A stretch of DNA of 64,000 bases from Trachythela sp. YZ-2020 (lineage: Eukaryota; Cnidaria; Anthozoa; Malacalcyonacea; Clavulariidae). The notes under the pieces were generated by a model. The model was given only the letters and a program-made list of their open reading frames with translations, did not search any database and was not told the DNA's origin. The position numbers and the translations under genes are program-made. This document shows, in pieces, positions 1 through 39,410 of this stretch (position 1 is the stretch's first letter; every line of letters starts with the position of its first letter). The DNA is taken from the NCBI GenBank assembly GCA_016169945.1, contig JADLSH010000382.1:620001-684000 (forward strand), in the 5' to 3' direction.

Positions 1-1971
1 AGTGGTTAGTTCGAAAACCAAACTGGTGGCAGTAATAAATTTCAAGTTTATTAGTAAATTCTACCAAACGATTATACATGACCCTTTCATAGATTTTTGA
101 AAAACTAGACAAAATTGAAATTGGTCTATAATTTGTGAATGTATCTACCTCACCAGCTTTAAAAATAGGAATTATTTTAGCTACTTTTAGCTTATCTGGG
201 AATAACCCTGCCTCAAGTGAAGAATTAATTACCAGCATTAATGGTTCAGATATTAATTCAAACGATTTTTTTATGATATGTATAGGTAAGTTGTCGTAGC
301 CAGGTGCTTTTCCATTTTTAAACGACATACATATCTCTCTCAGTTCATTAACAGTTGTAGGTTTAAGGAATATGGTTTCACTGATAGTAGGGCCTAAGAA
401 CTCATGAAATAAACGATTTGTTGGGGGAATCTTACGCGCAAGGGATGGGCCAATTTCAGAAAAATATTTACAAAAATCATTGGCAATTTTAGAGGGTTCA
501 TTGATAGTCATGTTATTTGATCGAAAAGATGACGGTAGTGAGGGCTTTTTACGTTTTAGGTTAGTGACTTCATTTATTAATTTCCATGTTGTTTCAAATC
601 ACTTTTAGCTAATTCAAATTTTTTATCGTAGTAAGTTTTCTTCGATATTCTAATTAGGTGATTCAATTTATTTTTGTATCTCTTATATTGAGAGTCACGT
701 ACAGGGGTAGGGTTTGCGAGATATTTTTTGTATAATTTATTCTTTTTTTTAACGGAAATCAGCAAACCTTTAGTAATCCATGGTAATTTTGATTTCCTAC
801 AAGAATTCAACTTAGATATTTTTAAGGGAAAACAATCCTCAAAATGGCTATAATATTCTTCGGCAAAAACATCGTAAAGTCTATTTGGATCCTGCCCCAT
901 CAAAACCCGAGTCCATTCGACCTGTGATAATTTAGTTTGAAACTTGATCATATTTAAATCGTTGTAATCCCGAGTATAATAAGTGGTTTCGTTGTTTGGT
1001 TTCTCAAATTTAGTACCAGATAACGCAAACACAGGTAGGTGGTCGGATAAGTCGTTTAGAATAATTCCATTTACAATATTTTGTGTAAAACAATTTGTAA
1101 ATATGTTATCAATTAGTGTTGCTGAATGAGAAGTTAGCCGCGTTGGCTTATTAATAAGAGGAATAAACATATGTAAAAAAATTATAAATTCTTGTGTATA
1201 CGCATGATGATCACAATGAAGTAAGTCCAAATTAAAATCTCCCATTATGTAGCATTGTTTGTTGTCTTTGGAAATAATGGAAAGAATTTTATTAAAGTCT
1301 TCAATAAATGAGACAAGGTTTTGGTTGGGTGGTCGGTAAACAGTTCCTACAATAATGTTTTTCCCAAGAGGGTTTGAAATTTCAACAAACAGGGACTCAA
1401 TTACTTCAGGATTAGAAATATTACAGTCTTGAATTAATTTGTACTGAAAATAATCACCTAGGTAAAGACCTACACCACCGCCTGTTTTACCTCGGCGATG
1501 ATTGCTAATGAAGTTATAACCAGGCAGATTTACCATATTAAAAGTATCATCGTTTAGCCAGGTTTCAGACACTCCAATTACAGAAAATGAGTCGAGCAAA
1601 TTTGTGGTTAAAACTCTAAACCTATCAAAATTACCAATGAGACTTCTACAATTTATATGCAAAAAAGACATTCCCGAATTACATGGTTTGTCCGTTACAA
1701 GTTCATTAACTTCACTTTCAATCATGTACCTACTATTAGGTGGCATTAGTTCGTTAAAGTTTAAATCTGGGTCAAGATTAGTTATAAATGAGTTCTCTAA
1801 AGTAGAAGGCAGATATTCAATTGGATTAAATATTAAAGATTCCAAACGATCTAGGTCAAAATTTAGTGGACCATGATCAAACTCATACAATACTGCATTA
1901 AAGGCAGTATCATCCAGGTGATTAAATGGCAGAGGTGACTCGCTTTCAATCAAAGAATTATTAACAGCCAT
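1..1971 (-). pseudogene. LINE ORF2: endonuclease plus start of reverse transcriptase, frameshifted
   Basis: ORF2 encodes the enzyme that nicks the target and copies the RNA. Residues about 101-315 of the open frame are the endonuclease: SFLHINCRS at 102-110, SETW at 135-138, VYRPPNQN at 211-218, GDFNLDLL at 244-251 and SDHLPV at 309-314. These match the conserved Glu, Asp-Asn and SDH catalytic positions of this family. The frame stops at 577, but the RT continues at once in another frame: the stretch from about 590 down to 1 reads through typical early RT blocks, including GKAPGYDNLP and NYRPISILSS, and ends near a GFR motif. A one-base-scale frameshift therefore sits near 585-600. It may be real decay or a sequence error. 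The catalytic YxDD box would lie beyond the left edge. The start at 1971 follows ORF1 closely, as expected for a bicistronic LINE. Confidence 0.85.
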
Positions 1972-2015
1972 TATTAAATATAATTATACTTATCTTATCT
2001 TCAAAAAGAAGATAG

Positions 2016-2846
2016 TTATAAACTTTGTTCTTGAGATAACAATTGAGCAAGATCCTCTCGTTTTGTAAGCTTGATAACAACATCACCCTCGGATTTGCGC
2101 AAACAAATGGCTTTATTTCTAACCCAACAAAACTTGAAGTTATTCTCGCGTTTGTATTTGTTCGCCTCAAACAAGAGTTCCTGTAGACGTGGGGGTAGAT
2201 GTTCATAGATACCAAGATGATTAACTTGCACTTCTGAGGAGAAACCAAGTTGTTGTGGTTGAACGTTGCCAGTTTCCCTTCTGAGAGCAAGAACCCTTTC
2301 CTTAGCCAAGCGACGGACGAATTTACAGACTATTGCACTCGGCCGATTTGTTTGCCTTCTCGCAAGGACTCGATGTGAAATGTCTATGTCCTGTTCTGTA
2401 ACTTCAGCTCCGATCGCGGCGAACAAATTCAAACACAATTTCGTTGTGTTTTCAGCTGATTCGTTCTCACCTTGCTGTGGCATGCCGACGATTTTCAGAT
2501 TGTATTGATAGCTGTAGTCCTCCATTTGTTCAACGGAGGTCATAATAACTTCGCATTTCTTAGATATCATGCTGACTTGCTTTTTTATATCTGTGAGATC
2601 TTGGATCACGTTATTTTTTAACACAATAATATCATCGTATTGAGCGCTTATGAATTCGATAGACTTGGTTTTATCGGCTGCCTCAGACCGATTAGTTGCA
2701 TGGTTGACTTCTTGTCCGGTAGAAGAATCGGCCATGTTGTCTTTTTTCTTTGACACTTCGTTTGTAATTTTATCCAGCCTTTCTTCTAGTGCCGTGATCT
2801 CGCTTCTCAGTGCTTGGTTCTCTTTCCGAAGCTTAGCAGTTGCCAT
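2016..2846 (-). CDS. LINE ORF1 protein (coiled coil plus L1-ORF1-like RNA-binding domain)
   Basis: A 276-aa open frame. Residues 1-36 form a heptad-rich charged coiled coil (many Leu, Glu, Lys), expected to oligomerise. A polar linker follows, then a region beginning YSYQYNLKIVGMP at 111-123. With DIDISHRV at 153-160 and PSAIVCKFV at 169-177 it has the layout of the RRM-like domain of L1-type ORF1 proteins found in several LINE clades. The family role is to bind the element RNA as a chaperone in the ribonucleoprotein. It lies directly upstream of ORF2. The frame is intact, so this copy is fairly young. The assignment is from motif layout only. Confidence 0.8.
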   Translation of the reverse strand: MATAKLRKENQALRSEITALEERLDKITNEVSKKKDNMADSSTGQEVNHATNRSEAADKTKSIEFISAQYDDIIVLKNNVIQDLTDIKKQVSMISKKCEVIMTSVEQMEDYSYQYNLKIVGMPQQGENESAENTTKLCLNLFAAIGAEVTEQDIDISHRVLARRQTNRPSAIVCKFVRRLAKERVLALRRETGNVQPQQLGFSSEVQVNHLGIYEHLPPRLQELLFEANKYKRENNFKFCWVRNKAICLRKSEGDVVIKLTKREDLAQLLSQEQSL

Positions 2847-3633
2847 AAAATAATATTAGGTAGTTGTATGATGTGAATAAGTAGTTTAACGGAGCACAAA
2901 ATACACGTCTGCTCACAACCTAACAGCACATAGGGTCTGCCAGTTAATGGGTTAACTATACAATATTTTAGTATTTTTTGGTTTTCAGTTCTTTAGTACA
3001 GTAATCCCCATTGATAGTTTTCTTTACACACAACCAGGCAAGATCCTTTTACTTTTCATGAATAACTGCTCAGCCATAATAACCAGGAATTACATCTACA
3101 ATATTAGACAAGAAGCCAATAAACATTCAACCCCACTCAGACACCAATTTTTATTTAGTTGGAGAAGTAAACATAAAGATCATTGTCAAATTCTAGGTCC
3201 AATTTGTCCCATAAATATGTAGGCAAAATGAAATGAAAATATCAAATCTTTAATCTATACTATGAAGAATACCGTGTCAATACTGCGGTTTCAACAAAAT
3301 ATCTTGCTGCAAACTTCTATATAAAAGTAAACTGTATTGGCACTCTGGTGTCCTGGCGACCCCCATAAGCTATCTAAGAATTGCAACATTTTCATTGAGA
3401 ATTAAAACATCAAAATTACTCTCTTACCTTTCTCATTTATACTTCCGATGCACACAGTTGGATTTATTCACCAAAATCGCTTAAAAGCGCGATTTAGTAG
3501 GCGGCCGTCAACTTCCGACGTGTGTCGGCAGCGCCAAAAACATCAAAGGAGTGATCCTTCTATTCATTCCTTTTAATTTTTTTAATTCTATTTTTCGTTT
3601 ACTGTTCAATATAGGCCTTCAGTTACTGCAATC
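2847..3633. other. LINE 5' flank and unassigned sequence
   Basis: No reading frame or RNA gene could be supported here. The part next to 2847 is probably LINE 5' UTR. A short stretch at about 2933-2955 (GCCAGTTAATGGGTTAAC) also occurs twice in the intronic minisatellite near 31540-31680. The block at 3480-3540 is CpG-rich compared with its surroundings. Confidence 0.5.
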
Positions 3634-4964
3634 TTGGAAAAAATAGTCAATTCAAATTTCAAAACATATCGTCAAAATATGCAATTAATCTCAATCAAAT
3701 CTAGAATTGCCCTAAATTTCGCCCCCCCGCCCAGAACAATGTTGGTTCAGGTTGTGTCGATTTGCAAGGGATACGGCCTCAATACCAACATTGTACAAGG
3801 GGGAGAGGGGAAATAATATCAAAATTCAAAGTCTACGAATTTTTCCCAAGATTGTCTGAAAAAAGAGAACGATTATGATTTTTTCTGATGTTAATTGAAC
3901 GTTTATTTCCAAAATATAGCTTAAGAAATATATGGAATCGTATATCGGGAATATAGTTTAAGGCTTCAGGAAACGTTTTCGGATGACGGAGGGTGGGGGC
4001 CTCCAGTTGGGGGTGTGTGATGTGGCCTGCGTTTTGTTGTATATATATGGTATGCTAAGGTGATGTGTATTTTATTGTACTACCTAAACGTAATTTACTG
4101 GATTTATAGTCAAGTGTACACTTAGTAGCGACATGAGAACCGTATTTTGATTGAGTCACTTAATAATGTAGTATTTCTCACTGGCCAAAAAAGCTCCCAA
4201 AAAAGTATCTTTGGAACATTCCGTTCAAATTAGGGCTGCATACCAACTGTCAAAAATTCCGTTTCAAGAGATCTTTTAGCTTCTAGCCATCTTTTTGGAC
4301 CACTGAGCTTCAAGGCGACATGGTAGTGAAAACCAACCTAGTGTTGTGGAACGACCTTGCTGCGTTTCGATGTGAATGCGGCGACTACAACTAGCATTAG
4401 CACTAAATGATTCTCTGGTCGGAAACTTCTGCAAATCGGCTTTGCTGTAAGTGATTACATATGTCCTTCTTGGTTTAGATTTATCCCTCTCGTCTGTTAA
4501 CTGTAATGTTTAGCTAAATCGTAAATACAGATTATAACTTTACCGTTTTACCATCAGAAAAGTAAACAAACCGATCGTATTCGATGAGCCAGCGAGATAG
4601 CCTGTGCGTGACGCAGAATCGTATGCCATGCCCCCCACACATATCTGTCCAACCCCCCTAAAGAAAAGTATTTCTAGTTACCCGGATTTCCTGTATGTTT
4701 TAAGTTTACAATACAATCGAATTGGACAAATCATTTAATGATCAAAACATTAAATTTCCCTTGTACGTTTTCCGTGTTTAGAGACAATCTTGGAAAAAAT
4801 ATTCGTAGACTTTTTGAAAAGTCTATTCAAATTTCAAAACATATCGTCAAAATATGCAATTAATCTCAATCAAATCTAGTAATTGCCCTAAATTTCGCCC
4901 CCTTCCCCCCCCTAGACCACATTGACAGGGGGGGTAAATAATATCAAAATTCAAAGTCTACGAA
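3634..4964 (+). repeat. Left part of 1.1-kb satellite array: partial unit then one full unit
   Basis: From 3634 to 3834 the sequence matches the tail of the unit found in tandem at 14274-18797, but with a different GC-rich stretch at about 3720-3810 that holds the inverted pair ACAATGTTGGT / ACCAACATTGT. A full unit runs from 3835 to about 4960, where it is interrupted by the 9.3-kb insertion. No coding potential is seen. The last six bases (TACGAA, 4959-4964) are the left copy of the target duplication. Confidence 0.85.
4959..4964. repeat. Target site duplication TACGAA, left copy (right copy 14273-14278)
   Basis: The same six bases flank both ends of the insertion, while intact satellite junctions at about 15391-15397 and 17642-17648 carry the site once. 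Confidence 0.9.
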
Positions 4965-5200
4965 AGTAGTATGGAGCGGGGCTTAATGGACCCAGTTTTA
5001 TGCGTAAAATTTAACGAGTTATCCCTGCATAATTCATGAGTTAATTATGTTAATGATCTGAATTAATTAATTCATTTCCGAGGATAATCCGAACAATTCC
5101 GAGTATGAGTTATGCATATTAATGAGCATTTATAATTAGATTCATTCCGACGACGTTAAAACAACGAGAGGTTTCCGACAGTTCGCCATTTTGTTCCAAG
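4965..5200 (+). repeat. Terminal inverted repeat end and leader of the left arm (mirror 14037-14272)
   Basis: The AT-rich leader between the terminus and the first gene contains palindromic AATTAATTAATT-type runs and repeats of ATGAGTTA/TTAATGAGC. It is identical in mirror image at the right end. Because genes lie inside the repeat, the terminal inverted repeat is at least 1.67 kb without net gaps and extends with small indels to about 3.9 kb. Confidence 0.8.
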
Positions 5201-5584
5201 ATGGCAGAACAGCTAATTCTGGATGTTTTTAAGGAAAATAATGTAGAATTAACGCAGGATACTTTACGGTTTTATATAAAACTGCTTTTAGAAAAGCATG
5301 AACATACATATAACTCCATGATATGTAGTATTGTAAGAGATAATGTGTTTGAAAATTTATGTCAAACATATGAAGAGACTAAGCCTTTAAATTCTGGTAG
5401 AATTATGGCTTACTTGGCTTTAGTTTACAAAGTGAGCGATTTTTGTGACACTGAAACAGTGCGAGAAGCCGTTCGAATATGTGTAGACGATTTAAAACAA
5501 TTTGATTTAGCGAGCTATGAAATTAAACTGTCTTGGTTTCAACGCTTAATTTCATGGTTAGTGTTACAGCTTAACCGCGTGTAA
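5201..5584 (+). CDS. Bcl-2-like small protein (127 aa), left-arm copy
   Basis: An all-helical 127-aa protein starting at an ATG. Residues about 56-76 contain ETKPLNSGRIMAYLALVY, which resembles the BH1 motif of Bcl-2 proteins (Asn-x-Gly-Arg-Ile followed by hydrophobic residues). The C-terminal SWFQRLISWLVLQL lies where BH2 would be and is also hydrophobic enough to contact membranes. The length suits a minimal viral Bcl-2 fold. Viral members of this family sit at mitochondria or ER and restrain host cell death; Bcl-2 homologues have been reported in adintovirus-like elements. A clear BH3-like motif was not found. An identical copy lies at 13653-14036 on the minus strand, and a truncated third is fused to the zinc-finger gene. 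The fold call is inferred from one motif and helix pattern. Confidence 0.5.
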   Translation: MAEQLILDVFKENNVELTQDTLRFYIKLLLEKHEHTYNSMICSIVRDNVFENLCQTYEETKPLNSGRIMAYLALVYKVSDFCDTETVREAVRICVDDLKQFDLASYEIKLSWFQRLISWLVLQLNRV

Positions 5585-5933
5585 TTTGAATATCACTAAT
5601 TGGAATTGAATAGCGAAAGTCATTAAGAAGTCATTAACTGTTGTACATGGGTGAACACATTGTACTTTAACGACATTGCCCAAACCATTAATTTTCCTCA
5701 TTGACTTTAAATTGCTTAAGCAGGACAGAAAGACTGAACACATTGTACTTTAACGACAGTGCCCAAACTTGATTTTTCTGAGCTTGTACAAAAAGGTTGT
5801 TAACGACTGGACTAGCCTGATCTTGTAGTTCTCTACACGGCGAAGTAGGGAGCACACATAGATAGCACAAATTGAAAACTTTCGCTTTGGAGCAACAACG
5901 TAAAAATCGTCGAAGTTGTACTTTAAAAAAAAA
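5585..5933. promoter_or_regulatory. Intergenic segment with a duplicated 33-bp motif
   Basis: Two near-identical direct copies containing CACATTGTACTTTAACGACA lie at about 5653-5686 and 5735-5768, between the Bcl-like gene and the next ORF, and mirror copies exist in the other arms. A third GTACTTTAA lies just before the next ORF (about 5918). The placement suggests a shared control or processing signal, but no function is shown. Confidence 0.35.
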
Positions 5934-6323
5934 ATGTTGCAAGATGATATTTACATGGTTGACGAAAGTCGATTATGTCGGAACCCCCTCAAATTGTTGG
6001 AAGCAATTTACGCTGATACAGTTGCAAATGAAATTACGCAGTTGTGCCAGGAAAACGAATGTAATATAGACGAAGGATGGCAGACGTACGGTATAGAAGC
6101 TATAGAACGTGTTAATAGCAAGCATTTGGTTTGGGACTCGTTTGTCGAGGCTGCAAGAATACTGAAAATCAATTGCCACGAAAACGTCCTTGAGCGTTTA
6201 AGAGAATTAAAAAAGGCACCAGAACACATGTTCGTTTACGACTTGGAAGAATCGTATCACTGTAAAAAGAGCCACCAATTTCAATGCATCCTAAATTATT
6301 TATCTTTTTGGAGGGAAAAGTAA
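5934..6323 (+). CDS. Unrecognised 129-aa protein, left-arm copy (ORF B)
   Basis: The ATG at 5934 follows a run of ten A. The protein is acidic and predicted helical, with Cys at about residues 15, 37 and 42, a central WQTYGIEAIERV stretch and a C-terminal Cys-Lys-Lys segment. No domain was recognised. It is in the same orientation as the Bcl-like gene, about 350 bases downstream. The gene is present three times: here, at 9341-9727 and at 12914-13303. The first and last are identical in length. The middle copy has small deletions that change the last twenty or so residues, so the true C-terminus is uncertain. Conservation of the frame in all copies suggests a real gene, although recent duplication would also explain it. 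Confidence 0.5.
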   Translation: MLQDDIYMVDESRLCRNPLKLLEAIYADTVANEITQLCQENECNIDEGWQTYGIEAIERVNSKHLVWDSFVEAARILKINCHENVLERLRELKKAPEHMFVYDLEESYHCKKSHQFQCILNYLSFWREK

Positions 6324-6635
6324 ACAAGTCAAGGATATCGAATGCTCATATCCGTACGTGGTCAGGCAATATTTCTATAGTAAAAAGTAGTTGACGTGTT
6401 ATTATAATTATAAAGAGGTTAAGGCGATAAACTTTTAATTCCACCTTTGGGATAACTTTACTTTACATTAAAAGTTATACGTAAAGCATACTGTAACTAA
6501 ACATTCAGTTATATTACGTGTGCATGCGCAATTGAAAATAGAGAAAATATACGTCTTGTGTACAATTTTATTAAAATATTATTACACTTCGCATAGAGTA
6601 TATTATATCTGTTTATATAATGTAGTTGAGGAAGT

Positions 6636-7216
6636 CTAGTCTGAATCAGTATTTTCGCCCTCTTCAATATAAGCATTGTCTTTTAAAAGACGTTTCAGAA
6701 GAAACTTTCTTTTATCAACGGCTGCTTCCAAAGCCTCATCATGATCAAAGTCGTCACTGTTTATAAACACATCTCTCGTGTTCATTACTTTTTTATGTAC
6801 ATGATTCCTCCTAAGCTGTCTCATCCACAATAGACGTTCCAGATAAACACTTTCGAGCTCTTTTTGTAGTTTAGGTAATATCAACGCGTACGCTTGCTTG
6901 TTGGAAGTTTCGTCATCAAGACCGTTTTCGATAAGATTCTGTTTTATTTCTTCGTACTCGCTGGCAAATCTTTGTTTTGCTTCCTCTATTAATGGTTTCA
7001 AGGATCACTTTCATCTTCTAATTCAGATCCTGATTCATTTCCATCTACCTCAGAATTTTGTGCATTATCACTATTTGACGCTTCGTCATCTGACTCCATG
7101 GGTACGGAATTGTGATCTGTATCCGACTCTTCCTCTCGGAATGGGCAGTATTCGTTTTCGTGTCTGCGCAAATTAAAGCGACGATTAAAAGATTTACCAC
7201 AAAACTTGCAGCTCAT
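6636..7216 (-). pseudogene. C2HC zinc-finger/acidic protein, left-arm copy, one-base frameshift
   Basis: The mirror of the intact 193-aa gene at 12020-12601. The start codon lies at 7216-7214. The finger and acidic region are readable down to about 7000, where one C is missing (TTTCAAGG instead of TTTCCAAGG), and the remaining frame continues to a stop at 6636. It converges with ORF B across a 310-bp AT-rich gap. Because the rest of the arm is nearly identical to the mirror copy, the missing base may be a homopolymer sequencing error rather than a true break. Confidence 0.65.
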
Positions 7217-8451
7217 CACTCTAGCACTGTTAGTAGCAAATGAGGATTTTAAGAAAATTATTGCCTCATGAGCACTTGCTCTGTTGTATAGCTCATGAAT
7301 GACGTAGCGTTGGCATGAACAAGCTCACGACGACCACTCATAATTACTCATACCCCATGAGCACTCTGAAATGCTCATTTTCGTTGAGCAGAGATAAAAG
7401 ATGGCCCGAGCAAGACGAAAACATGATCCATTAATTGACTTAATTATACGAAAATACAATCTCTCAAGATGCGACTATAGCGAAATTAACTTGCGGATAT
7501 AAGTAATGTTCTATTTAATACTTGTAATGTTGCATACATCTCTCACCAATAACTTCTATATTATTCTTCTATACATTATTTTCGTTCAGCTTGGGCCACT
7601 ACTCATATATGCTCAATGTAAATGAACATTGTAAGCCCAGTATTTTTATGAGTTCTGTATGAATAAGTTTAATAACATATCGTGAGCGTAGTTCAGCCGT
7701 GCTCAATCGATCCCTTCCGAGCGAGCCAAAAAGCAGTTAATGTAAAGTCAACAGGGTTGATTGGCAATACAAAGCAATACCGCAAAGCGAAAATCATTTT
7801 ACGACCAAGAGTTGAGAACAGGCCTAGTTTCAGGTTAATCTATTTGGTGTCTTCTAAAAAGACCGCTTGGTTTTTGAGCCTATACTATCCGTAGCAGACA
7901 TGAATATCCTTTCTGTCTAATCTAGTATGCGGCTAAGTGGGGTGTTGAAGGCAGACATAAGGACCAAGTCACTCAAAGTCAGTAATGGATCATGTTTTCG
8001 TCTTGCTCGGGCCATCTATTATGTCTGCTCAACGAAAATGAGCACTTCAGAATGCTCGTAAGGCATGAGTAATCATGAGTGGTCGTCGTGAGCTTGTCCA
8101 CAAAAGTGTTGAAAATACTATATCTTCGTACTTTTCAACTCGGCTTCCAGCAGCCAGCAGTCGTTTGGAGCATTGTTGGCAAAGTAGATAGGGCATGAAA
8201 ATTCTTACAGGTCTGGTAGCCAGTCTGAATGAGTTACGGGACATCTGGCATGTTTTCGTCTTGCTCGGGCCATCTTTTATCTCTGCTCAACGAAAATGAG
8301 CATTTCAGAGTGCTCATGGGGTATGAGTAATTATGAGTGGTCGTCGAGCTTGTCTACGTCAACGCTCATTCATGAGCTATACAACAGAGCAAGTGCTCAT
8401 GAGGCAATAATTTTCTTAAAATCCTCATTTGCTACTAACAGTGCTAGAGTG
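7217..8451. promoter_or_regulatory. Central spacer of the left half with divergent upstream regions rich in GCTCA/TGAGC
   Basis: The spacer separates two divergent zinc-finger copies. Each gene is preceded by about 200 bp densely sprinkled with GCTCA and TGAGC half-sites, many forming palindromes such as GCTCATTCATGAGC. Two direct, diverged copies of a block containing TTTTCGTCTTGCTCGGGCCA start near 7990 and 8250, and an inverted copy ends near 7435; a more distant relative is at about 7580-7640. No convincing gene was found in the spacer. Confidence 0.5.
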
Positions 8452-9003
8452 ATGAGCTGCAAGTTTTGTGGTAAATCTTTTAATCGTCGCTTTAATTTGC
8501 GCAGACACGAAAACGAATACTGCCCATTCCGAGAGGAAGAGTCGGATACAGATCACAATTCCGTACCCATGGAGTCAGATGACGAAGCGTCAAATAGTGA
8601 TAATGCACAAAATTCTGAGGTAGATGGAAATGAATCAGGATCTGAATTAGAAGATGAAAGTGATCCTTGGAAACCATTAATAGAGGAAGCAAAACAAAGA
8701 TTTGCCAGCGAGTACGAAGAAATAAAACAGAATCTTATCGAAAACGGTCTTGATGACGAAACTTCCAACAAGCAAGCGTACGCGTTGATATTACCTAAAC
8801 TACAAAAAGAGCTCGAAAGTGTTTATCTGGAACGTCTATTGTGGATGAGACAGCTTAGGAGGAATCATGTACATAAAAAAGTAATGAACACGAGAGATGT
8901 GTTTATAAACAGTGACGACTTTGATCATGATGAGGCTTTGAAGCAGCCGTTGATAAAGAAAGTTTCTTCTGAAACGTCTTTTAAAAGACAATGCTTATAT
9001 TGA
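8452..9003 (+). pseudogene. C2HC zinc-finger/acidic protein, second copy, frameshifted C-terminus
   Basis: It matches the intact copy at 12020-12601 up to about residue 165, then two single-base deletions in short homopolymer runs (near 8940 and 8962) change the last residues and the frame stops at 9003 instead of running to the usual terminal acidic tail. The downstream sequence to 9340 still matches the mirror copy with further one-base gaps, again suggesting a poorly polished duplicate or early decay. Confidence 0.65.
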
Positions 9004-9340
9004 AGAGGGCGAAAATACTGATTCAGACTAGACTTCCTCAACTACATTATATAAACAGATATAATATACTCTATGCGAAGTGTAATAATATTTTAATAAA
9101 ATTGTACACAAGACGTATATTTTCTATTTTCAATTGCGCATGCACACGTAATATAACTGAATGTTTAGTTACAGTATGCTTTACGTATAACTTTTAATGT
9201 AAAGTAAAGTTATCCCAAAGGTGGAATTAAAAGTTTATCGCCTTAACCTCTTTATAATTATAATAACACGTCAACTACTTTTACTATAGAAATATTGCCT
9301 GACCACGTACGGATATGAGCATTCGATATCCTTGACTTGT

Positions 9341-9727
9341 TTACTTTTCCTCCAAAAAGATAAATAATTTAGGATGCATTGAAATTGGTGGCTTTTTACA
9401 GTGATACGATTCTTCCAAGTCGTAAACGAACATGTGTTCTGGTGCCTTTTTTAATTCTCTTAAACGCTCAAGGACGTTTTCGTGGCAATTGATTTTCAGT
9501 ATTCTTGCAGCCTCGACAAACGAGTCCCAAACCAAATGCTTGCTATTAACACGTTCTATAGCTTCTATACCGTACGTCTGCCATCCTTCGTCTATATTAC
9601 ATTCGTTTTCCTGGCACAACTGCGTAATTTCATTTGCAACTGTATCAGCGTAAATTGCTTCCAACAATTTGAGGGGGTTCCGACATAATCGACTTTCGTC
9701 AACCATGTAAATATCATCTTGCAACAT
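9341..9727 (-). CDS. ORF B, middle copy, altered C-terminus
   Basis: The same 110 N-terminal residues as the arm copies. Small deletions near 9350 and 9394 shift the frame twice, giving a different C-terminal segment and a stop at 9341. No domain was recognised. It is the only copy without a mirror partner, because the partner was lost at the junction at 10343. Confidence 0.45.
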   Translation of the reverse strand: MLQDDIYMVDESRLCRNPLKLLEAIYADTVANEITQLCQENECNIDEGWQTYGIEAIERVNSKHLVWDSFVEAARILKINCHENVLERLRELKKAPEHMFVYDLEESYHCKKPPISMHPKLFIFLEEK

Positions 9728-10076
9728 TTTTTTTTTAAAGTACAACTTCGACGATTTTTACGTTGTTGCTCCAAAGCGAAAGTTTTCAATTTGTGCTATC
9801 TATGTGTGCTCCCTACTTCGCCGTGTAGAGAACTACAAGATCAGGCTAGTCCAGTCGTTAACAACCTTTTTGTACAAGCTCAGAAAAATCAAGTTTGGGC
9901 ACTGTCGTTAAAGTACAATGTGTTCAGTCTTTCTGTCCTGCTTAAGCAATTTAAAGTCAATGAGGAAAATTAATGGTTTGGGCAATGTCGTTAAAGTACA
10001 ATGTGTTCACCCATGTACAACAGTTAATGACTTCTTAATGACTTTCGCTATTCAATTCCAATTAGTGATATTCAAA

Positions 10077-10784
10077 TTACACGCGGTTAAGCTGTAACAC
10101 TAACCATGAAATTAAGCGTTGAAACCAAGACAGTTTAATTTCATAGCTCGCTAAATCAAATTGTTTTAAATCGTCTACACATATTCGAACGGCTTCTCGC
10201 ACTGTTTCAGTGTCACAAAAATCGCTCACTTTGTAAACTAAAGCCAAGTAAGCCATAATTCTACCAGAATTTAAAGGCTTAGTCTCTTCATATGTTTGAC
10301 ATAAATTTTCAAACACATTATCTCTTACAATACTACATATCATCGTGTTCATTACTTTTTTATGTACATGATTCCTCCTAAGCTGTCTCATCCACAATAG
10401 ACGTTCCAGATAAACACTTTCGAGCTCTTTTTGTAGTTTAGGTAATATCAACGCGTACGCTTGCTTGTTGGAAGTTTCGTCATCAAGACCGTTTTCGATA
10501 AGATTCTGTTTTATTTCTTCGTACTCGCTGGCAAATCTTTGTTTTGCTTCCTCTATTAATGGTTTCCAAGGATCACTTTCATCTTCTAATTCAGATCCTG
10601 ATTCATTTCCATCTACCTCAGAATTTTGTGCATTATCACTATTTGACGCTTCGTCATCTGACTCCATGGGTACGGAATTGTGATCTGTATCCGACTCTTC
10701 CTCTCGGAATGGGCAGTATTCGTTTTCGTGTCTGCGCAAATTAAAGCGACGATTAAAAGATTTACCACAAAACTTGCAGCTCAT
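10077..10784 (-). CDS. In-frame chimera: zinc-finger N-terminus joined to Bcl-like C-terminus
   Basis: The frame starts at the zinc-finger ATG (10784). It keeps the finger, the acidic region and the helical region to about residue 148, then passes at 10344/10343 into the last 87 residues of the Bcl-like protein, including its BH1-like and C-terminal hydrophobic segments. The joint shares a single T between the two parents, as expected for end joining. It marks where two palindromic units were fused, each with one side deleted. Whether the fusion is expressed is unknown; a one-in-three chance of being in frame means it may be accidental. Confidence 0.6.
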   Translation of the reverse strand: MSCKFCGKSFNRRFNLRRHENEYCPFREEESDTDHNSVPMESDDEASNSDNAQNSEVDGNESGSELEDESDPWKPLIEEAKQRFASEYEEIKQNLIENGLDDETSNKQAYALILPKLQKELESVYLERLLWMRQLRRNHVHKKVMNTMICSIVRDNVFENLCQTYEETKPLNSGRIMAYLALVYKVSDFCDTETVREAVRICVDDLKQFDLASYEIKLSWFQRLISWLVLQLNRV

Positions 10785-12019
10785 CACTCTAGCACTGTTA
10801 GTAGCAAATGAGGGATTTTAAGAAAATTATTGCCTCATGAGCACTTGCTCTGTTGTATAGCTCATGAATGAGCGTTGACGTAGACAAGCTCACGACGACC
10901 ACTCATAATTACTCATACCCCATGAGCACTCTGAAATGCTCATTTTCGTTGAGCAGAGATAAAAGATGGCCCGAGCAAGACGAAAACATGCCAGATGTCC
11001 CGTAACTCATTCAGACTGGCTACCAGACCTGTAAGAATTTTCATGCCCTATCTACTTTGCCAACAATGCTCCAAACGACTGCTGGCTGCTGGAAGCCGAG
11101 TTGAAAAGTACGAAGATATAGTATTTTCAACACTTTTGTGGACAAGCTCACGACGACCACTCATGATTACTCATGCCTTACGAGCATTCTGAAGTGCTCA
11201 TTTTCGTTGAGCAGACATAATAGATGGCCCGAGCAAGACGAAAACATGATCCATTACTGACTTTGAGTGACTTGGTCCTTATGTCTGCCTTCAACACCCC
11301 ACTTAGCCGCATACTAGATTAGACAGAAAGGATATTCATGTCTGCTACGGATAGTATAGGCTCAAAAACCAAGCGGTCTTTTTAGAAGACACCAAATAGA
11401 TTAACCTGAAACTAGGCCTGTTCTCAACTCTTGGTCGTAAAATGATTTTCGCTTTGCGGTATTGCTTTGTATTGCCAATCAACCCTGTTGACTTTACATT
11501 AACTGCTTTTTGGCTCGCTCGGAAGGGATCGATTGAGCACGGCTGAACTACGCTCACGATATGTTATTAAACTTATTCATACAGAACTCATAAAAATACT
11601 GGGCTTACAATGTTCATTTACATTGAGCATATATGAGTAGTGGCCCAAGCTGAACGAAAATAATGTATAGAAGAATAATATAGAAGTTATTGGTGAGAGA
11701 TGTATGCAACATTACAAGTATTAAATAGAACATTACTTATATCCGCAAGTTAATTTCGCTATAGTCGCATCTTGAGAGATTGTATTTTCGTATAATTAAG
11801 TCAATTAATGGATCATGTTTTCGTCTTGCTCGGGCCATCTTTTATCTCTGCTCAACGAAAATGAGCATTTCAGAGTGCTCATGGGGTATGAGTAATTATG
11901 AGTGGTCGTCGTGAGCTTGTCTACGTCAACGCTCATTCATGAGCTATACAACAGAGCAAGTGCTCATGAGGCAATAATTTTCTTAAAATCCCTCATTTGC
12001 TACTAACAGTGCTAGAGTG
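10785..12019. promoter_or_regulatory. Mirror copy of the spacer with GCTCA/TGAGC clusters
   Basis: Reverse-complement counterpart of 7217-8451, with the same divergent upstream regions. The 200 bp before the intact zinc-finger gene (11817-12019) contains about eight GCTCA or TGAGC sites, including TGCTCA-N7-TGAGCA. No other gene is supported in it. Confidence 0.5.
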
Positions 12020-12601
12020 ATGAGCTGCAAGTTTTGTGGTAAATCTTTTAATCGTCGCTTTAATTTGCGCAGACACGAAAACGAATACTGCCCATTCCGA
12101 GAGGAAGAGTCGGATACAGATCACAATTCCGTACCCATGGAGTCAGATGACGAAGCGTCAAATAGTGATAATGCACAAAATTCTGAGGTAGATGGAAATG
12201 AATCAGGATCTGAATTAGAAGATGAAAGTGATCCTTGGAAACCATTAATAGAGGAAGCAAAACAAAGATTTGCCAGCGAGTACGAAGAAATAAAACAGAA
12301 TCTTATCGAAAACGGTCTTGATGACGAAACTTCCAACAAGCAAGCGTACGCGTTGATATTACCTAAACTACAAAAAGAGCTCGAAAGTGTTTATCTGGAA
12401 CGTCTATTGTGGATGAGACAGCTTAGGAGGAATCATGTACATAAAAAAGTAATGAACACGAGAGATGTGTTTATAAACAGTGACGACTTTGATCATGATG
12501 AGGCTTTGGAAGCAGCCGTTGATAAAAGAAAGTTTCTTCTGAAACGTCTTTTAAAAGACAATGCTTATATTGAAGAGGGCGAAAATACTGATTCAGACTA
12601 G
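12020..12601 (+). CDS. C2HC zinc-finger/acidic protein, intact copy (193 aa)
   Basis: Residues 3-24 form one finger with spacing C-x2-C-x12-H-x4-C (CKFCGKSFNRRFNLRRHENE then YC), a C2HC variant of the classical C2H2 module. Residues 25-72 are very acidic and serine-rich. Residues 73-145 are predicted helical and include WKPLIEEAKQRF and a basic RQLRRNHVHKK stretch; the end is a charged helix and an acidic tail. A DNA-binding or nucleic-acid-binding role is likely from the finger; the rest is not recognised. Similar single-finger acidic proteins are found in eukaryotic mobile and viral elements, which fits the context. It is divergent from its neighbour across the GCTCA-rich region and converges with ORF B. 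It is the only copy with a complete frame. Confidence 0.65.
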   Translation: MSCKFCGKSFNRRFNLRRHENEYCPFREEESDTDHNSVPMESDDEASNSDNAQNSEVDGNESGSELEDESDPWKPLIEEAKQRFASEYEEIKQNLIENGLDDETSNKQAYALILPKLQKELESVYLERLLWMRQLRRNHVHKKVMNTRDVFINSDDFDHDEALEAAVDKRKFLLKRLLKDNAYIEEGENTDSD

Positions 12602-12913
12602 ACTTCCTCAACTACATTATATAAACAGATATAATATACTCTATGCGAAGTGTAATAATATTTTAATAAAATTGTACACAAGACGTATATTTTCTCTATT
12701 TTCAATTGCGCATGCACACGTAATATAACTGAATGTTTAGTTACAGTATGCTTTACGTATAACTTTTAATGTAAAGTAAAGTTATCCCAAAGGTGGAATT
12801 AAAAGTTTATCGCCTTAACCTCTTTATAATTATAATAACACGTCAACTACTTTTTACTATAGAAATATTGCCTGACCACGTACGGATATGAGCATTCGAT
12901 ATCCTTGACTTGT

Positions 12914-13303
12914 TTACTTTTCCCTCCAAAAAGATAAATAATTTAGGATGCATTGAAATTGGTGGCTCTTTTTACAGTGATACGATTCTTCCAAGTCGTA
13001 AACGAACATGTGTTCTGGTGCCTTTTTTAATTCTCTTAAACGCTCAAGGACGTTTTCGTGGCAATTGATTTTCAGTATTCTTGCAGCCTCGACAAACGAG
13101 TCCCAAACCAAATGCTTGCTATTAACACGTTCTATAGCTTCTATACCGTACGTCTGCCATCCTTCGTCTATATTACATTCGTTTTCCTGGCACAACTGCG
13201 TAATTTCATTTGCAACTGTATCAGCGTAAATTGCTTCCAACAATTTGAGGGGGTTCCGACATAATCGACTTTCGTCAACCATGTAAATATCATCTTGCAA
13301 CAT
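12914..13303 (-). CDS. ORF B, right-arm copy
   Basis: Exact mirror in position and length of 5934-6323 (coordinate sums are 19237). See that entry for what is visible in the protein. It lies between the Bcl-like gene upstream and the intact zinc-finger gene, with which it converges. Confidence 0.5.
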   Translation of the reverse strand: MLQDDIYMVDESRLCRNPLKLLEAIYADTVANEITQLCQENECNIDEGWQTYGIEAIERVNSKHLVWDSFVEAARILKINCHENVLERLRELKKAPEHMFVYDLEESYHCKKSHQFQCILNYLSFWREK

Positions 13304-13652
13304 TTTTTTTTTAAAGTACAACTTCGACGATTTTTACGTTGTTGCTCCAAAGCGAAAGTTTTCAATTTGTGCTATCTATGTGTGCTCCCTACTTCGCCGT
13401 GTAGAGAACTACAAGATCAGGCTAGTCCAGTCGTTAACAACCTTTTTGTACAAGCTCAGAAAAATCAAGTTTGGGCACTGTCGTTAAAGTACAATGTGTT
13501 CAGTCTTTCTGTCCTGCTTAAGCAATTTAAAGTCAATGAGGAAAATTAATGGTTTGGGCAATGTCGTTAAAGTACAATGTGTTCACCCATGTACAACAGT
13601 TAATGACTTCTTAATGACTTTCGCTATTCAATTCCAATTAGTGATATTCAAA

Positions 13653-14036
13653 TTACACGCGGTTAAGCTGTAACACTAACCATGAAATTAAGCGTTGAAA
13701 CCAAGACAGTTTAATTTCATAGCTCGCTAAATCAAATTGTTTTAAATCGTCTACACATATTCGAACGGCTTCTCGCACTGTTTCAGTGTCACAAAAATCG
13801 CTCACTTTGTAAACTAAAGCCAAGTAAGCCATAATTCTACCAGAATTTAAAGGCTTAGTCTCTTCATATGTTTGACATAAATTTTCAAACACATTATCTC
13901 TTACAATACTACATATCATGGAGTTATATGTATGTTCATGCTTTTCTAAAAGCAGTTTTATATAAAACCGTAAAGTATCCTGCGTTAATTCTACATTATT
14001 TTCCTTAAAAACATCCAGAATTAGCTGTTCTGCCAT
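13653..14036 (-). CDS. Bcl-2-like small protein, right-arm copy
   Basis: Same 127 residues as the left-arm copy at 5201-5584, at the mirrored position. It is the first gene inside the right terminus and reads inward. Identity of both copies points to very recent formation or ongoing homogenisation of the arms. Confidence 0.5.
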   Translation of the reverse strand: MAEQLILDVFKENNVELTQDTLRFYIKLLLEKHEHTYNSMICSIVRDNVFENLCQTYEETKPLNSGRIMAYLALVYKVSDFCDTETVREAVRICVDDLKQFDLASYEIKLSWFQRLISWLVLQLNRV

Positions 14037-14273
14037 CTTGGAACAAAATGGCGAACTGTCGGAAACCTCTCGTTGTTTTAACGTCGTCGGAATGAATCTA
14101 ATTATAAATGCTCATTAATATGCATAACTCATACTCGGAATTGTTCGGATTATCCTCGGAAATGAATTAATTAATTCAGATCATTAACATAATTAACTCA
14201 TGAATTATGCAGGGATAACTCGTTAAATTTTACGCATAAAACTGGGTCCATTAAGCCCCGCTCCATACTACTT

Positions 14274-17200
14274 ACGAATTTTTCCCAAGATTGTCTGAAA
14301 AAAGAGAACGATTATGATTTTTTCTGATGTTAATTGAACGTTTATTTCCAAAATATAGCTTAAGAAATATATGGAATCGTATATCGGGAATATAGTTTAA
14401 GGCTTCAGGAAACGTTTTCGGATGACGGAGGGTGGGGGCCTCCAGTTGGGGGGGGGGTGGTGTGGCGTGGACTGCGTTTTGTTGTATATATATGGTATGC
14501 TAAGGTGATGTGTATTTTATTGTACTACCTAAACGTAATTTACTGGATTTATAGTCAAGTGTACACTTAGTAGCGACATGAGAACCGTATTTTGATTGAG
14601 TCACTTAATAATGTAGTATTTCTCACTGGCCAAAAAAGCTCCCAAAAAAGTATCTTTGGAACATTCCGTTCAAATTAGGGCTGCATACCAACTGTCAAAA
14701 ATTCCGTTTCAAGAGATCTTTTAGCTTCTAGCCATCTTTTTGGACCACTGAGCTTCAAGGCGACATGGTAGTGAAAACCAACCTAGTGTTGTGGAACGAC
14801 CTTGCTGCGTTTCGATGTGAATGCGGCGACTACAACTAGCATTAGCACTAAATGATTCTCTGGTCGGAAACTTCTGCAAATCGGCTTTGCTGTAAGTGAT
14901 TACATATGTCCTTCTTGGTTTAGATTTATCCTCTCGTCTGTTAACTGTAATGTTTAGCTAAATCGTAAATACAGATTATAACTTTACCGTTTTACCATCA
15001 GAAAAGTAAACAAACCGATCGTATTCGATGAGCCAGCAAGATAGCCTGTGCGTGACGCAGAATCGTATGCCATGCCCCCCACACATATCTGTCCAACCCC
15101 CCTAAAGAAAAGTATTTCTAGTTACCCGGATTTCCTGTATGTTTTAAGTTTACAATACAATCGAATTGGACAAATCATTTAATGATCAAAACATTAAATT
15201 TCCCTTGTACGTTTTCCGTGTTTAGAGACAATCTTGGAAAGAATATTCGTAGACTTTTGAAAAGTCTATTCAAATTTCAAAACATATCGTCAAAATATGC
15301 AATTAATCTCAATCAAATCTAGTAATTGCCCTAAATTTCGCTTTCCCCTAGACCACATTGACAGGGGTAAATAATATCAAAATTCAAAGTCTACGAATTT
15401 TTCCCAAGATTGTCTGAAAAAAGAGAACGATTATGATTTTTTCTGATGTTAATTGAACGTTTATTTCCAAAATATAGCTTAAGAAATATATGGAATCGTA
15501 TATCGGGAATATAGTTTAAGGCGTCAGGAAACGTTTTCGGATGACGGAGGGTGGGGGCCTCCAGTTGGGGGGGGGGGGGTGTGGCGTGGACTGCGTTTTG
15601 TTGTATATATATGGTATGCTAAGGTGATGTGTATTTTATTGTACTACCTAAACGTAATTTACTGGATTTATAGTCAAGTGTACACTTAGTAGCGACATGA
15701 GAACCGTATTTTGATTGAGTCACTTAATAATGTAGTATTTCTCACTTGCCAAAAAAGCTCCCAAAAAAGTATCTTTGGAACATTCCGTTCAAATTAGGGC
15801 TGCATACCAACTGTCAAAAATTCAGTTTCAAGAGATCTTTTAGCTTCTAGCCATCTTTTTGGACCACTGAGCTTCAAGGCGACATGGTAGTGAAAACCAA
15901 CCTAGTGTTGTGGAACGACCTTGCTGCGTTTCGATGTGAATGCGGCGACTACAACTAGCATTAGCACTAAATGATTCTCTGGTCGGAAACTTCTGCAAAT
16001 CGGCTTTGCTGTAAGTGATTACATATGTCCTTCTTGGTTTAGATTTATCCCTCTCGTCTGTTAACTGTAATGTTTAGCTAAATCGTAAATACAGATTATA
16101 ACTTTACCGTTTTACCATCAGAAAAGTAAACAAACCGATCGTATTCGATGAGCCAGCGAGATAGCCTGTGCGTGACGCAGAATCGTATGCCATGCCCCCC
16201 ACACATATCTGTCCAACCCCCCTAAAGAAAAGTATTTCTAGTTACCCGGATTTCCTGTATGTTTTAAGTTTACAATACAATCGAATTGGACAAATCATTT
16301 AATGATCAAAACATTAAATTTCCTTGTACGTTTTCCGTGTTTAGAGACAATCTTGGAAAATATTCGTAGACTTTTTGAAAAGTCTATTCAAATTTCAAAA
16401 CATATCGTCAAAATATGCAATTAATCTCAATCAAATCTAGTAATTGCCCTAAATTTCGCCCCCTTCCCCCCCCTAGACCACATTGACAGGGGGGGTAAAT
16501 AATATCAAAATTCAAAGTCTACGAATTTTTCCCAAGATTGTCTGAAAAAAGAGAACATTTATGATTTTTCTGATGTTAATTGAACGTTTATTTCCAAAAT
16601 ATAGCTTAAGAAATATATGGAATCGTATATCGGGAATATAGTTTAAGGCTTCAGGAAACGTTTTCGGATGACGGAGGGTGGGGCCTCCAGTTGGGGTGGT
16701 GTGGCGTGGACTGCGTTTTGTTGTATATATATGGTATGCTAAGGTGATGTGTATTTTATTGTACTACCTAAACGTAATTTACTGGATTTATAGTCAAGTG
16801 TACACTTAGTAGCGACATGAGAACCGTATTTTGATTGAGTCACTTAATAATGTAGTATTTCTCACTGGCCAAAAAAGCTCCCAAAAAAGTATCTTTGGAA
16901 CATTCCGTTCAAATTAGGGCTGCATACCAACTGTCAAAAATTCCGTTTCAAGAGATCTTTTAGCTTCTAGCCATCTTTTTGGACCACTGAGCTTCAAGGC
17001 GACATGGTAGTGAAAACCAACCTAGTGTTGTGGAACGACCTTGCTGCGTTTCGATGTGAATGCGGCGACTACAACTAGCATTAGCACTAAATGATTCTCT
17101 GGTCGGAAACTTCTGCAAATCGGCTTTGCTGTAAGTGATTACATATGTCCTTCTTGGTTTAGATTTATCCCTCTCGTCTGTTAACTGTAATGTTTAGCTA

Positions 17201-18797
17201 AATCGTAAATACAGATTATAACTTTACCGTTTTACCATCAGAAAAGTAAACAAACCGATCGTATTCGATGAGCCAGCGAGATAGCCTGTGCGTGACGCAG
17301 AATCGTATGCCATGCCCCCCACACATATCTGTCCAACCCCCCTAAAGAAAAGTATTTCTAGTTACCCGGATTTCCTGTATGTTTTAAGTTTACAATACAA
17401 TCGAATTGGACAAATCATTTAATGATCAAAACATTAAATTTCCCTTGTACGTTTTCCGTGTTTAGAGACAATCTTGGAAAAAATATTCGTAGACTTTTTG
17501 AAAAGTCTATTCAAATTTCAAAACATATCGTCAAAATATGCAATTAATCTCAATCAAATCTAGTAATTGCCCTAAATTTCGCCCCCTTCCCCCCCCTAGA
17601 CCACATTGACAGGGGGGGTAAATAATATCAAAATTCAAAGTCTACGAATTTTTCCCAAGATTGTCTGAAAAAAGAGAACGATTATGATTTTTTCTGATGT
17701 TAATTGAACGTTTATTTCCAAAATATAGCTTAAGAAATATATGGAATCGTATATCGGGAATATAGTTTAAGGCTTCAGGAAACGTTTTCGGATGACGGAG
17801 GGTGGGGGCCTCCAGTTGGGGGGGGGGTGGTGTGGCGTGGACTGCGTTTTGTTGTATATATATGGTATGCTAAGGTGATGTGTATTTTATTGTACTACCT
17901 AAACGTAATTTACTGGATTTATAGTCAAGTGTACACTTAGTAGCGACATGAGAACCGTATTTTGATTGAGTCACTTAATAATGTAGTATTTCTCACTGGC
18001 CAAAAAAGCTCCCAAAAAAGTATCTTTGGAACATTCCGTTCAAATTAGGGCTGCATACCAACTGTCAAAAATTCCGTTTCAAGAGATCTTTTAGCTTCTA
18101 GCCATCTTTTTGGACCACTGAGCTTCAAGGCGACATGGTAGTGAAAACCAACCTAGTGTTGTGGAACGACCTTGCTGCGTTTCGATGTGAATGCGGCGAC
18201 TACAACTAGCATTAGCACTAAATGATTCTCTGGTCGGAAACTTCTGCAAATCGGCTTTGCTGTAAGTGATTACATATGTCCTTCTTGGTTTAGATTTATC
18301 CCTCTCGTCTGTTAACTGTAATGTTTAGCTAAATCGTAAATACAGATTATAACTTTACCGTTTTACCATCAGAAAAGTAAACAAACCGATCGTATTCGAT
18401 GAGCCAGCGAGATAGCCTGTGCGTGACGCAGAATCGTATGCCATGCCCCCCACACATATCTGTCCAACCCCCCTAAAGAAAAGTATTTCTAGTTACCCGG
18501 ATTTCCTGTATGTTTTAAGTTTACAATACAATCGAATTGGACAAATCATTTAATGATCAAAACATTAAATTTCCCTTGTACGTTTTCCGTGTTTAGAGAC
18601 AATCTTGGAAAAAATATTCGTAGACTTTTTGAAAAGTCTATTCAAATTTCAAAACATATCGTCAAAATATGCAATTAATCTCAATCAAATCTAGTAATTG
18701 CCCTAAATTTCGCCCCCTTCCCCCCCTTGAACCACATTGACAGGGGGGGTAAATAATATCAAAATTAAAAAAGTCTACGAATTTTTTTTCCAAGACT
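14274..18797 (+). repeat. 1.12-1.13 kb satellite, four tandem units
   Basis: Units start with ACGAATTTTTCCCAAGATTG at 14274, 15393, 16521 and 17644, and a truncated fifth start is at 18777. Lengths are about 1119, 1128, 1123 and 1133 bp, and copies differ mainly in poly-G and poly-C runs. Within each unit the start sequence reappears inverted about 970 bp later (GACAATCTTGGAAAA followed by ATTCGTAGAC), then a roughly 150-bp spacer with the hairpin GACTTTTTGAAAAGTC leads to the next unit. This is the layout of a small inverted-repeat transposon that became a tandem satellite. No ORF of note and no RNA gene were recognised. Confidence 0.9.
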
Positions 18798-18811
18798 CTG
18801 CCACTGTGGTT

Positions 18812-21050: not shown

Positions 21051-21059
21051 ACTGTGGTT

Positions 21060-21806
21060 TTAAAAAGAGAGTAAAAATATTTTCATACATGAAGCGCTCG
21101 CCCCGCTCTAACTAATAACAGTAGATGGCAGATATTAATTAAGTATTTTTTGAAATTGTAATTTCAGCACCACGACTTTCACGAGTATACTCTTTATCTT
21201 TCCAATTTCAACATTCACTCAATCGTTTTCTACATTACCGAGAAAATCTAGATATAAAAACGTTGTTCAGCGTAAAAGTAACTATTTAATTGAAACGATT
21301 TGCTGCGGGTTTGAGGGTCACACTACCCGGCGAAAAAGAGAACAAGAACTTTCACTTTTCGAGCAAAGGCCCTTCGCCTGGAAGTGAATTTAAACTTAGC
21401 TCGGTATTTTAGCAAAATTTAGCTCGGTATTTTATTCCATACACTGGACTATCTTCTGACATAAATAAAAAACTTTGGGTCTTTAGGATCAATCTACGTG
21501 AAAAATAATGCAAAGCGTCAGTCCAGTTTATGATATATATCAGTGTCGTCGTTGAGTCGCCCGTGTTCGAAATTTAAGCGGTTTCATAATGATTGCCATT
21601 ATACTCTAGCGCAAAATTTGGAAAAGCAACAAAGGCAAATTTTTATCTTATTTTACAATCGATTTCAACTAATTTTCTTCTTGATTCAATTTGATTATTT
21701 TCAAGTCTTAAAGAAATAACTATTCGGTGGTGAACTGCGAGCGGTAAACGTTCAATTTTGTGTGTTAATTCCTACATGTACTTGACAAACTTATTTATAT
21801 CAAATT
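21060..21806. other. Upstream region of the zinc-finger gene
   Basis: No gene or repeat was recognised. It should hold the promoter and 5' UTR of the gene at 21807, but no specific element is supported. Confidence 0.4.
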
Positions 21807-33664: not shown

Positions 33665-33983
33665 AAGATTTCCTTATATACTTCTCGAATTTCAATGCAC
33701 TCGTATTGTCACGTGACATAGAATAACATAATTTGGCCACACCCCCAGCTTCCAAACCCTGTCTCTATTAACTATGGCCCGCCGCACACTAGAGCTATCA
33801 GCTTAGGGAAGTGTCACTCGTGACTGTTGGCGTAAGCAAGTTCCCCCAGTGTGCGGTGGCGTTTTGAGCGCTATTGTTCACGCGTGCCATCGGCACCTGA
33901 TATTCAACATGTTGAACAATTTTGTGCACGAGTGAACATTTCCTCCAAGTGTGCGCGCGTGCAAAGCTATCGCAACAAATAAA

Positions 33984-34150
33984 ATGGCGGCGAGTAGTGA
34001 TTTGGTGGCTGAAGCAATGTTGGAAGAGAAGATTGCTGATATTTGGCCGGACTATCCTTGTCTATACGACGTAAGGTGTCCTGAATTTAAAAATCGAGAT
34101 ATGCGCGATAAATCTATGCACGAAATGGCTGGAAAACTTGGAAAAACAGA
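33984..34150 (+). pseudogene. MADF-domain fragment
   Basis: From the ATG at 33984 the frame reads IADIWPDYPCLYDVRCPEFK and continues RDMRDKSMHEMAGKLG, the three-helix MADF (Adf-1 Myb/SANT-like) pattern of DNA-binding proteins, common in PIF/Harbinger helper proteins and in host factors. After the domain the frame runs into unrelated hydrophobic sequence, so the rest of the gene is missing or lies in unrecognised exons. It lies just after the end of the preceding transposon and before the Crypton-like gene. Confidence 0.55.
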
Positions 34151-34338
34151 TTTATCGCATGTCGCATTACGCCTGTTCATTACCATTATTCTAGCCAGTC
34201 AATTGCATTTTCTGACCAATAAACACGCTGAACTGGCTGGTCCGCCATTATTCTGGACAGATAACTGCATAAAAATAGGGTGTCGCGTTGCACTGCTGAG
34301 TGGCCTTTCTGGTCATTTCCTATTCTGTGATTGTAGCA

Positions 34339-39339: not shown

Positions 39340-39410
<71 letters not shown>

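Follow-up and report, generated by a model that had tools for sequence, protein, structure and literature searches.

We analysed a window of 64,000 nucleotides from the anthozoan Trachythela sp. YZ-2020 (NCBI GenBank assembly GCA_016169945.1, contig JADLSH010000382.1, positions 620,001 to 684,000 of the forward strand; all coordinates below are those of the window). A satellite array with a unit of approximately 1.12 kb spans about 3.6–18 kb of this sequence (3600–18000), and one of its units is split by a 9,308-bp element at 4965–14272. The element, a gene-bearing palindrome in which one mirror is nested inside another, is the subject of this report, which rests on this one locus within the window.

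Insertion into a satellite unit

The element is bounded by a short direct duplication:

4959–4964, unstranded: target-site duplication TACGAA, left copy, recognized from the empty satellite copies and the joined flanks
14273–14278, unstranded: target-site duplication TACGAA, right copy, pairing with the left copy perfectly over 6 bp

The surrounding array provides a natural empty-site control. The same site is intact, with a single TACGAA, in four satellite copies (at 3834, 15392, 16520 and 17643). When the two flanks were joined with one TACGAA, the resulting 806 bases were identical to the satellite copy around 17643 at 806 of 806 positions without a gap, and matched two further copies at 98.4% and 97.9% identity. 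The uninterrupted copies and the gapless match therefore show that the element is a single clean insertion with a 6-bp target duplication, the duplication that a first-pass annotation of this DNA had reported.

A mirror within a mirror

From left to right, the element consists of the following segments, in which lower-case letters mark inverted copies:

4965–5311, plus strand: segment A, left copy, the outermost 347 bp, found just at the two ends and absent from the centre
5312–7425, plus strand: segment B, left outer copy
7426–8248, plus strand: spacer C, left copy
8249–10349, minus strand: segment b, the left inner, inverted copy of B, with private small insertions or deletions (indels) and its outer end cut at ~10343
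10335–10990, plus strand: B stub, the right inner copy, 656 bp, with the turn-back junction at ~10343 and an overlap of 1 bp
10991–11813, minus strand: spacer C, right copy, inverted
11814–13925, minus strand: segment B, right outer copy, inverted
13926–14272, minus strand: segment A, right copy

The order is thus A-B-C-b, then the B stub, then c-b-a. The arms of the outer mirror (4965–8900 and 10335–14272) align across 3,932 bases and differ by 5 mismatches and 10 gap columns; their outermost 2,035 bases pair perfectly, and the giant palindrome of the first-pass annotation is therefore real in this assembly. Between the arms lies a central loop of 1.4 kb (8901–10334), and the strand reads A-B-C-b followed by its own complement. 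Within the left half, an inner mirror pairs 5312–7425 with 8249–10349 (2,100 aligned bases, 15 gap columns and 6 mismatches, 2 of them at the central junction). Each half had been described as again an inverted pair; this is correct for the left half, but the right half retains just a 656-nt stub of its second inner arm (10335–10990). In 50 random sequences matched in length and first-order composition, perfect inverted repeats reached 20 nt at most (median 14), and chance is therefore excluded as the source of the mirror.

The two copies of spacer C are identical (823/823), and the six spacer frames that were scanned gave no Pfam match above the cut-off. Inside and beside this spacer lies an older inverted pair (7316–7441 and 7976–8100) of approximately 90% identity, which may be a trace of an earlier fold-back round. 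The symmetry of the element ends exactly at both termini, beyond which the flanks continue in direct order with the duplication intact. A mirror formed in the chromosome, within a read or by amplification would have extended into those flanks. The palindrome was therefore complete before integration, and the mirror existed before the element was inserted.

Genes carried in the arms

All nine frames of at least 110 amino acids (aa) in the element derive from three gene families, and copies of all three lie inside the inverted arms, where the first-pass annotation had placed them:

5201–5584, plus strand: probable Bcl-2-fold protein (gene 1), 127 aa, left copy
13653–14036, minus strand: probable Bcl-2-fold protein, right copy, identical in sequence to the left
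5916–6323, plus strand: open reading frame 2 (ORF2), 135 aa, with no assigned function
12914–13321, minus strand: ORF2, right copy, identical in sequence
9341–9745, minus strand: ORF2, inner copy, C terminus changed by small indels
12017–12601, plus strand: zinc-finger protein, 194 aa, the sole copy open across the full length common to its relatives
6636–7216, minus strand: left outer copy of the zinc-finger gene, interrupted by a frameshift
8296–9003, plus strand: zinc-finger gene, left inner copy, C terminus altered
10077–10787, minus strand: truncated zinc-finger gene fused in frame, over the turn-back junction, to a truncated Bcl-like gene, 236 aa

Consistent with the earlier naming of a Bcl-like gene, the product of gene 1 probably has a Bcl-2 fold. 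Two results speak against this assignment. A profile search of solved structures gave just polyhedrin (E = 0.55) and a designed protein, and no viral model matched at E ≤ 0.001, the best being herpesvirus ORF64 (E = 0.075), which is not named as a Bcl-2 protein. ORF2 had two relatives in a protein search, its predicted structural model was poor (mean predicted local distance difference test score, pLDDT, 51.3), and its profile gave no significant match to the Bcl-like protein. A Pfam match of ORF2 to MUG113 (E = 0.011) fell below the cut-off and was not used. Matches to PHROGs were weak at most, the best being that of ORF2 to phrog_37350 (E = 6.4e-4), a family of unknown function.

The zinc-finger protein has 238 relatives. 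Its match to Pfam zf-C2H2 (E = 7.7e-5, 23.4 bits) lies under the cut-off of 25.2, and the finger ligands conserved in 20 aligned members of the family are C-C-H-C; judged from this alignment, the finger of the element may be a C2HC variant. Against solved structures the zinc-finger profile gave weak matches, with Gfi-1 the best (E = 0.007).

Termini and coding capacity

Both ends of the element carry the same six bases:

4965–4970, plus strand: terminal motif AGTAGT, the (AGT)2 of Mavericks (PMC8097293)
14267–14272, minus strand: terminal motif, reading ACTACT on the plus strand in the sequence of the right end

In vertebrate Mavericks, (AGT)2//(ACT)2 is the commonest end motif and duplications are 6 bp long; (AG)3//(CT)3 is another end motif, and three motif types are named (PMC8097293). 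The Polinton-like ends of the first-pass annotation were described as 'AG' termini, which understates the match, as the full six-base motif is present. Given the base composition, the probability of AGTAGT at one fixed place is P = 3.5e-4, and that of a match to any of the three motif types is approximately three times this value or somewhat less. The element combines this motif with a perfect 6-bp duplication and terminal inverted repeats, as Mavericks/Polintons do, and its ends are probably of the Maverick type.

The longest stop-to-stop frame within the element, at 256 aa, is too short to encode a Maverick polymerase. Neither the 4 gene products nor the 6 frames scanned out of 23 in the spacer area matched a polymerase, integrase or capsid in Pfam, a search that covered the core proteins represented in that database. 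These results agree with the earlier suggestion that only accessory genes are kept. The further suggestion of a lineage that borrows replication and integration from a full Polinton or adintovirus-like relative goes beyond the single copy seen here. The core genes of an autonomous Maverick (protein-primed DNA polymerase B, RVE integrase, ATPase, protease and capsid) were not found in the element, which can therefore only be a non-autonomous derivative. Taken together, the ends, the duplication and the gene content identify it, as far as sequence can tell, as a non-autonomous element with Maverick/Polinton-type ends. No frame in it has the size of an adintovirus-type DNA polymerase B (PolB) or hexon, and we do not claim membership of the Adintoviridae.

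Variation among the copies

The four copies of B differ by 10 small indel groups and 3 substitution groups, and the substitutions all fall in one short cluster of the left outer copy. At 7290–7330 we observed a local rearrangement cluster, confined to the left outer copy, that looks as if short words had been swapped. The inner arm b has 7 private indel groups and no private substitution. One single-base difference separates both left copies from both right copies. The faults in the gene copies (the frameshift, the changed ends and the fusion) could be either real changes or sequencing errors.

Origin of the nested mirror

The explanation we favour for this architecture is that the element, with its Maverick-type ends and non-autonomous content, was built by two rounds of self-primed (snap-back) copying and integrated by enzymes acting in trans; we give this combined account about an even chance. 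Taken separately, a snap-back origin of the nested mirror has an even to slightly better than even chance, and dependence on a helper for integration is somewhat favoured. The ancestor would have been a linear replicon copied by strand displacement, bounded by terminal inverted repeats and carrying the Bcl-like gene, ORF2 and the zinc-finger gene near one end. One end would have been lost, and the genes for polymerase, integrase and capsid with it, and the shortened molecule would have folded back near spacer C, its 3′ end being extended on its own strand to the surviving terminus. The product of this first round would be A-B-C-b-a, a unit with two good ends. After this unit had again lost an end (347 bp or more), a second snap-back at ~10343 onto ~8893, copied out to the terminus, would yield A-B-C-b / B'-c-b-a. 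Every round would thus restore the lost end needed for replication and integration, a form of end rescue, and a Maverick-type integrase from another element would finally insert the product with a 6-bp duplication.

Self-primed copying after end loss accounts for the two intact ends, for the absence of A from the centre and for the recurrence of the pattern at two scales. From ~8893 outward, the right half repeats the left in reverse complement, apart from the 5 mismatches and 10 gap columns, and spacer C in the right half has the orientation that copying back predicts, which supports snap-back copying. The polymerase of phi29 is a protein-primed enzyme of the B family, like that of Polintons. 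Of 475 chimeras that this strand-displacing enzyme made in vitro, more than 85% were inverted and had lost the sequence between the joined parts, and more than 70% of the chimera junctions have 2–21 nt of complementarity (PMC1855051).

Several observations weigh against this account. The overlap at the turn-back junction is 1 bp, below the 2–21 nt of most phi29 chimeras, and would fit end joining as well. The authors of the phi29 study exclude hairpin self-priming as a major route in their reaction and favour priming on displaced strands nearby (PMC1855051), which speaks against the simplest form of the snap-back model. Indels without substitutions in arm b look like uncorrected long-read error and not like age, and the assembly of the centre of the element is therefore less certain. 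The AGTAGT/ACTACT motif was published for vertebrates, and the host belongs to another animal phylum than those in the motif survey. A single copy of the element was observed, accompanied by neither an A-B-C-b-a intermediate nor a full-length relative in the window. Finally, five scans of viral contigs (with the zinc-finger protein alone, with the zinc-finger, Bcl-like and ORF2 profiles, and with the 19-base terminus) found no relative. A search of prokaryote genomes with the zinc-finger profile also found none; absence from both sets would fit a family living in animal genomes, without demonstrating it.

The main rival to snap-back copying is the joining of two units, as the first-pass annotation had proposed: end joining or recombination would have linked two fold-back copies of approximately 5.7 kb, each short of part of one flank, in head-to-head orientation, either before insertion or in place. 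We regard this as possible but rather doubtful. It predicts the same final sequence, the 1-bp junction overlap suits end joining, and the single-base difference does split the left copies from the right copies. By contrast, the near identity of the halves, with no difference in spacer C, is expected if one strand was copied, although two very recent units would also look nearly alike. A join in place would further require two insertions to share one target duplication, whereas the element is bounded by a single intact TACGAA pair and its empty site aligns without a gap. The earlier proposal is therefore viable as to sequence, but one strand snapped back at ~10343 needs fewer steps.

It is also conceivable that the centre is an assembly artefact. 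The insertion itself would then be a plainer mirror, A-B-C-b-a, of approximately 5.7 kb, which the assembler threaded through reads from a second copy or through a chimeric one. The 7 private indel groups of arm b, with their resemblance to uncorrected long reads, point in this direction, and near-identical inverted arms are hard to assemble. However, the junction links two points of which neither is a copy of the other, so a read carrying it is needed, and a chimera of genomic DNA would have extended the mirror into the satellite, whereas the mirror stops at the termini and the flanks and duplication are direct. For this last reason we rejected a read-level or amplification chimera of genomic DNA outright, and we consider an artefact of the centre quite unlikely. 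A fold-back transposon of another superfamily (Galileo/P-like, Foldback/Mutator-like (MULE-like) or other), with 6-bp duplications and captured genes, is very improbable. Galileo does have long, variable and recombined terminal repeats, but its duplications are 7 bp (PMC3573991) and not the 6 bp seen here, and Galileo and the P superfamily were set aside on this criterion. Ginger elements were rejected because their ends are TGTNR (PMC2836005). A separate fold-back in the window, at 18812–21050, has a 9-bp duplication, the AGTAGT/ACTACT ends belong to Mavericks, and the products scanned gave no transposase-like Pfam match.

Relation to known systems

The element shares with Mavericks/Polintons the 6-bp duplication, the (AGT)2//(ACT)2 ends, terminal inverted repeats and accessory genes near the ends (PMC8097293, PMC4028283). 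It differs in size (9.3 kb, compared with 12.7–24.6 kb for published Mavericks) and in its mirror arm, which is 3.9 kb long, gene-bearing and nested, whereas published Maverick terminal repeats measure 46–1,447 bp (PMC8097293). It also differs in having no polymerase-length frame and no core-gene Pfam match in the products scanned. Adintoviruses are animal-associated, integrase-bearing relatives of Polintons, and some of them carry genes resembling zinc-finger regulators, as described in a 2024 preprint (PMC11071296); the word Bcl is absent from the main text of that preprint. In contrast to adintoviruses, the element has no frame for PolB or hexon and no integrase match. Like Galileo and Foldback of Drosophila, whose copies consist almost wholly of long recombined inverted repeats (PMC3573991), the element is made up largely of its arms; Galileo differs in its duplication length and in its P-type transposase family. 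No palindromic non-autonomous Maverick appeared among the part of the literature titles examined, and a literature search that combined adintovirus, bcl-2 and polinton returned nothing.

In defective viral genomes of the snap-back or copy-back kind, and in inverted duplications of the adenovirus type, one strand runs on into its own complement, part of it being lost or kept as a loop, and one intact end is duplicated. The inverted chimeras of phi29 are built in the same way (PMC1855051). Unlike either, the product described here is chromosomal and has a target duplication, and the event apparently took place twice.

Other features of the window

A second, unrelated fold-back element lies at 18812–21050. 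Its arms contain TGGAC pentamer repeats, its termini are GGCATAGTAC...GTACTATGCC, and it is flanked by the 9-bp duplication ACTGTGGTT (18803–18811 and 21051–21059), a length reminiscent of elements of the Mutator/Foldback type. The remaining features are as follows:

577–2855, minus strand: remnant of a non-LTR (long terminal repeat) retrotransposon, comprising an endonuclease domain and an ORF that gave a Baculo_FP-type match
21786–23900: frame of 704 aa with a C2H2 zinc-finger array, recognized by eye, and internal repeats of 84 bp and 162 bp
33936–34421: frame with a match to the MADF DNA-binding domain
38588–47896, minus strand: exon-like frames of an adhesion-type G-protein-coupled receptor (GAIN and 7tm_2, the secretin-type seven-transmembrane domain) with an immunoglobulin domain

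Implications

We also considered a more far-reaching, speculative reading, which we think unlikely: that the element is a germline record of the defective-interfering genome of a Maverick-type virus. Such a genome would have arisen by snap-back during replication as a linear extrachromosomal molecule, would have shed all its core genes, doubled its accessory genes and regained both ends, would have spread as a hyperparasite of the integrase, the polymerase and perhaps the particles of a full Maverick, and would have repeated, fold-based end rescue as its mode of growth.

Before integration, Mavericks are believed to pass through a linear, protein-primed replicating form that is difficult to observe. 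A palindrome already complete at insertion, with its symmetry running out at Maverick-type termini, would be a trace of extrachromosomal copying of this kind. Should similar derivatives exist in other genomes, the replication of these virus-like elements, and of possible defective relatives, could be studied from assemblies alone.

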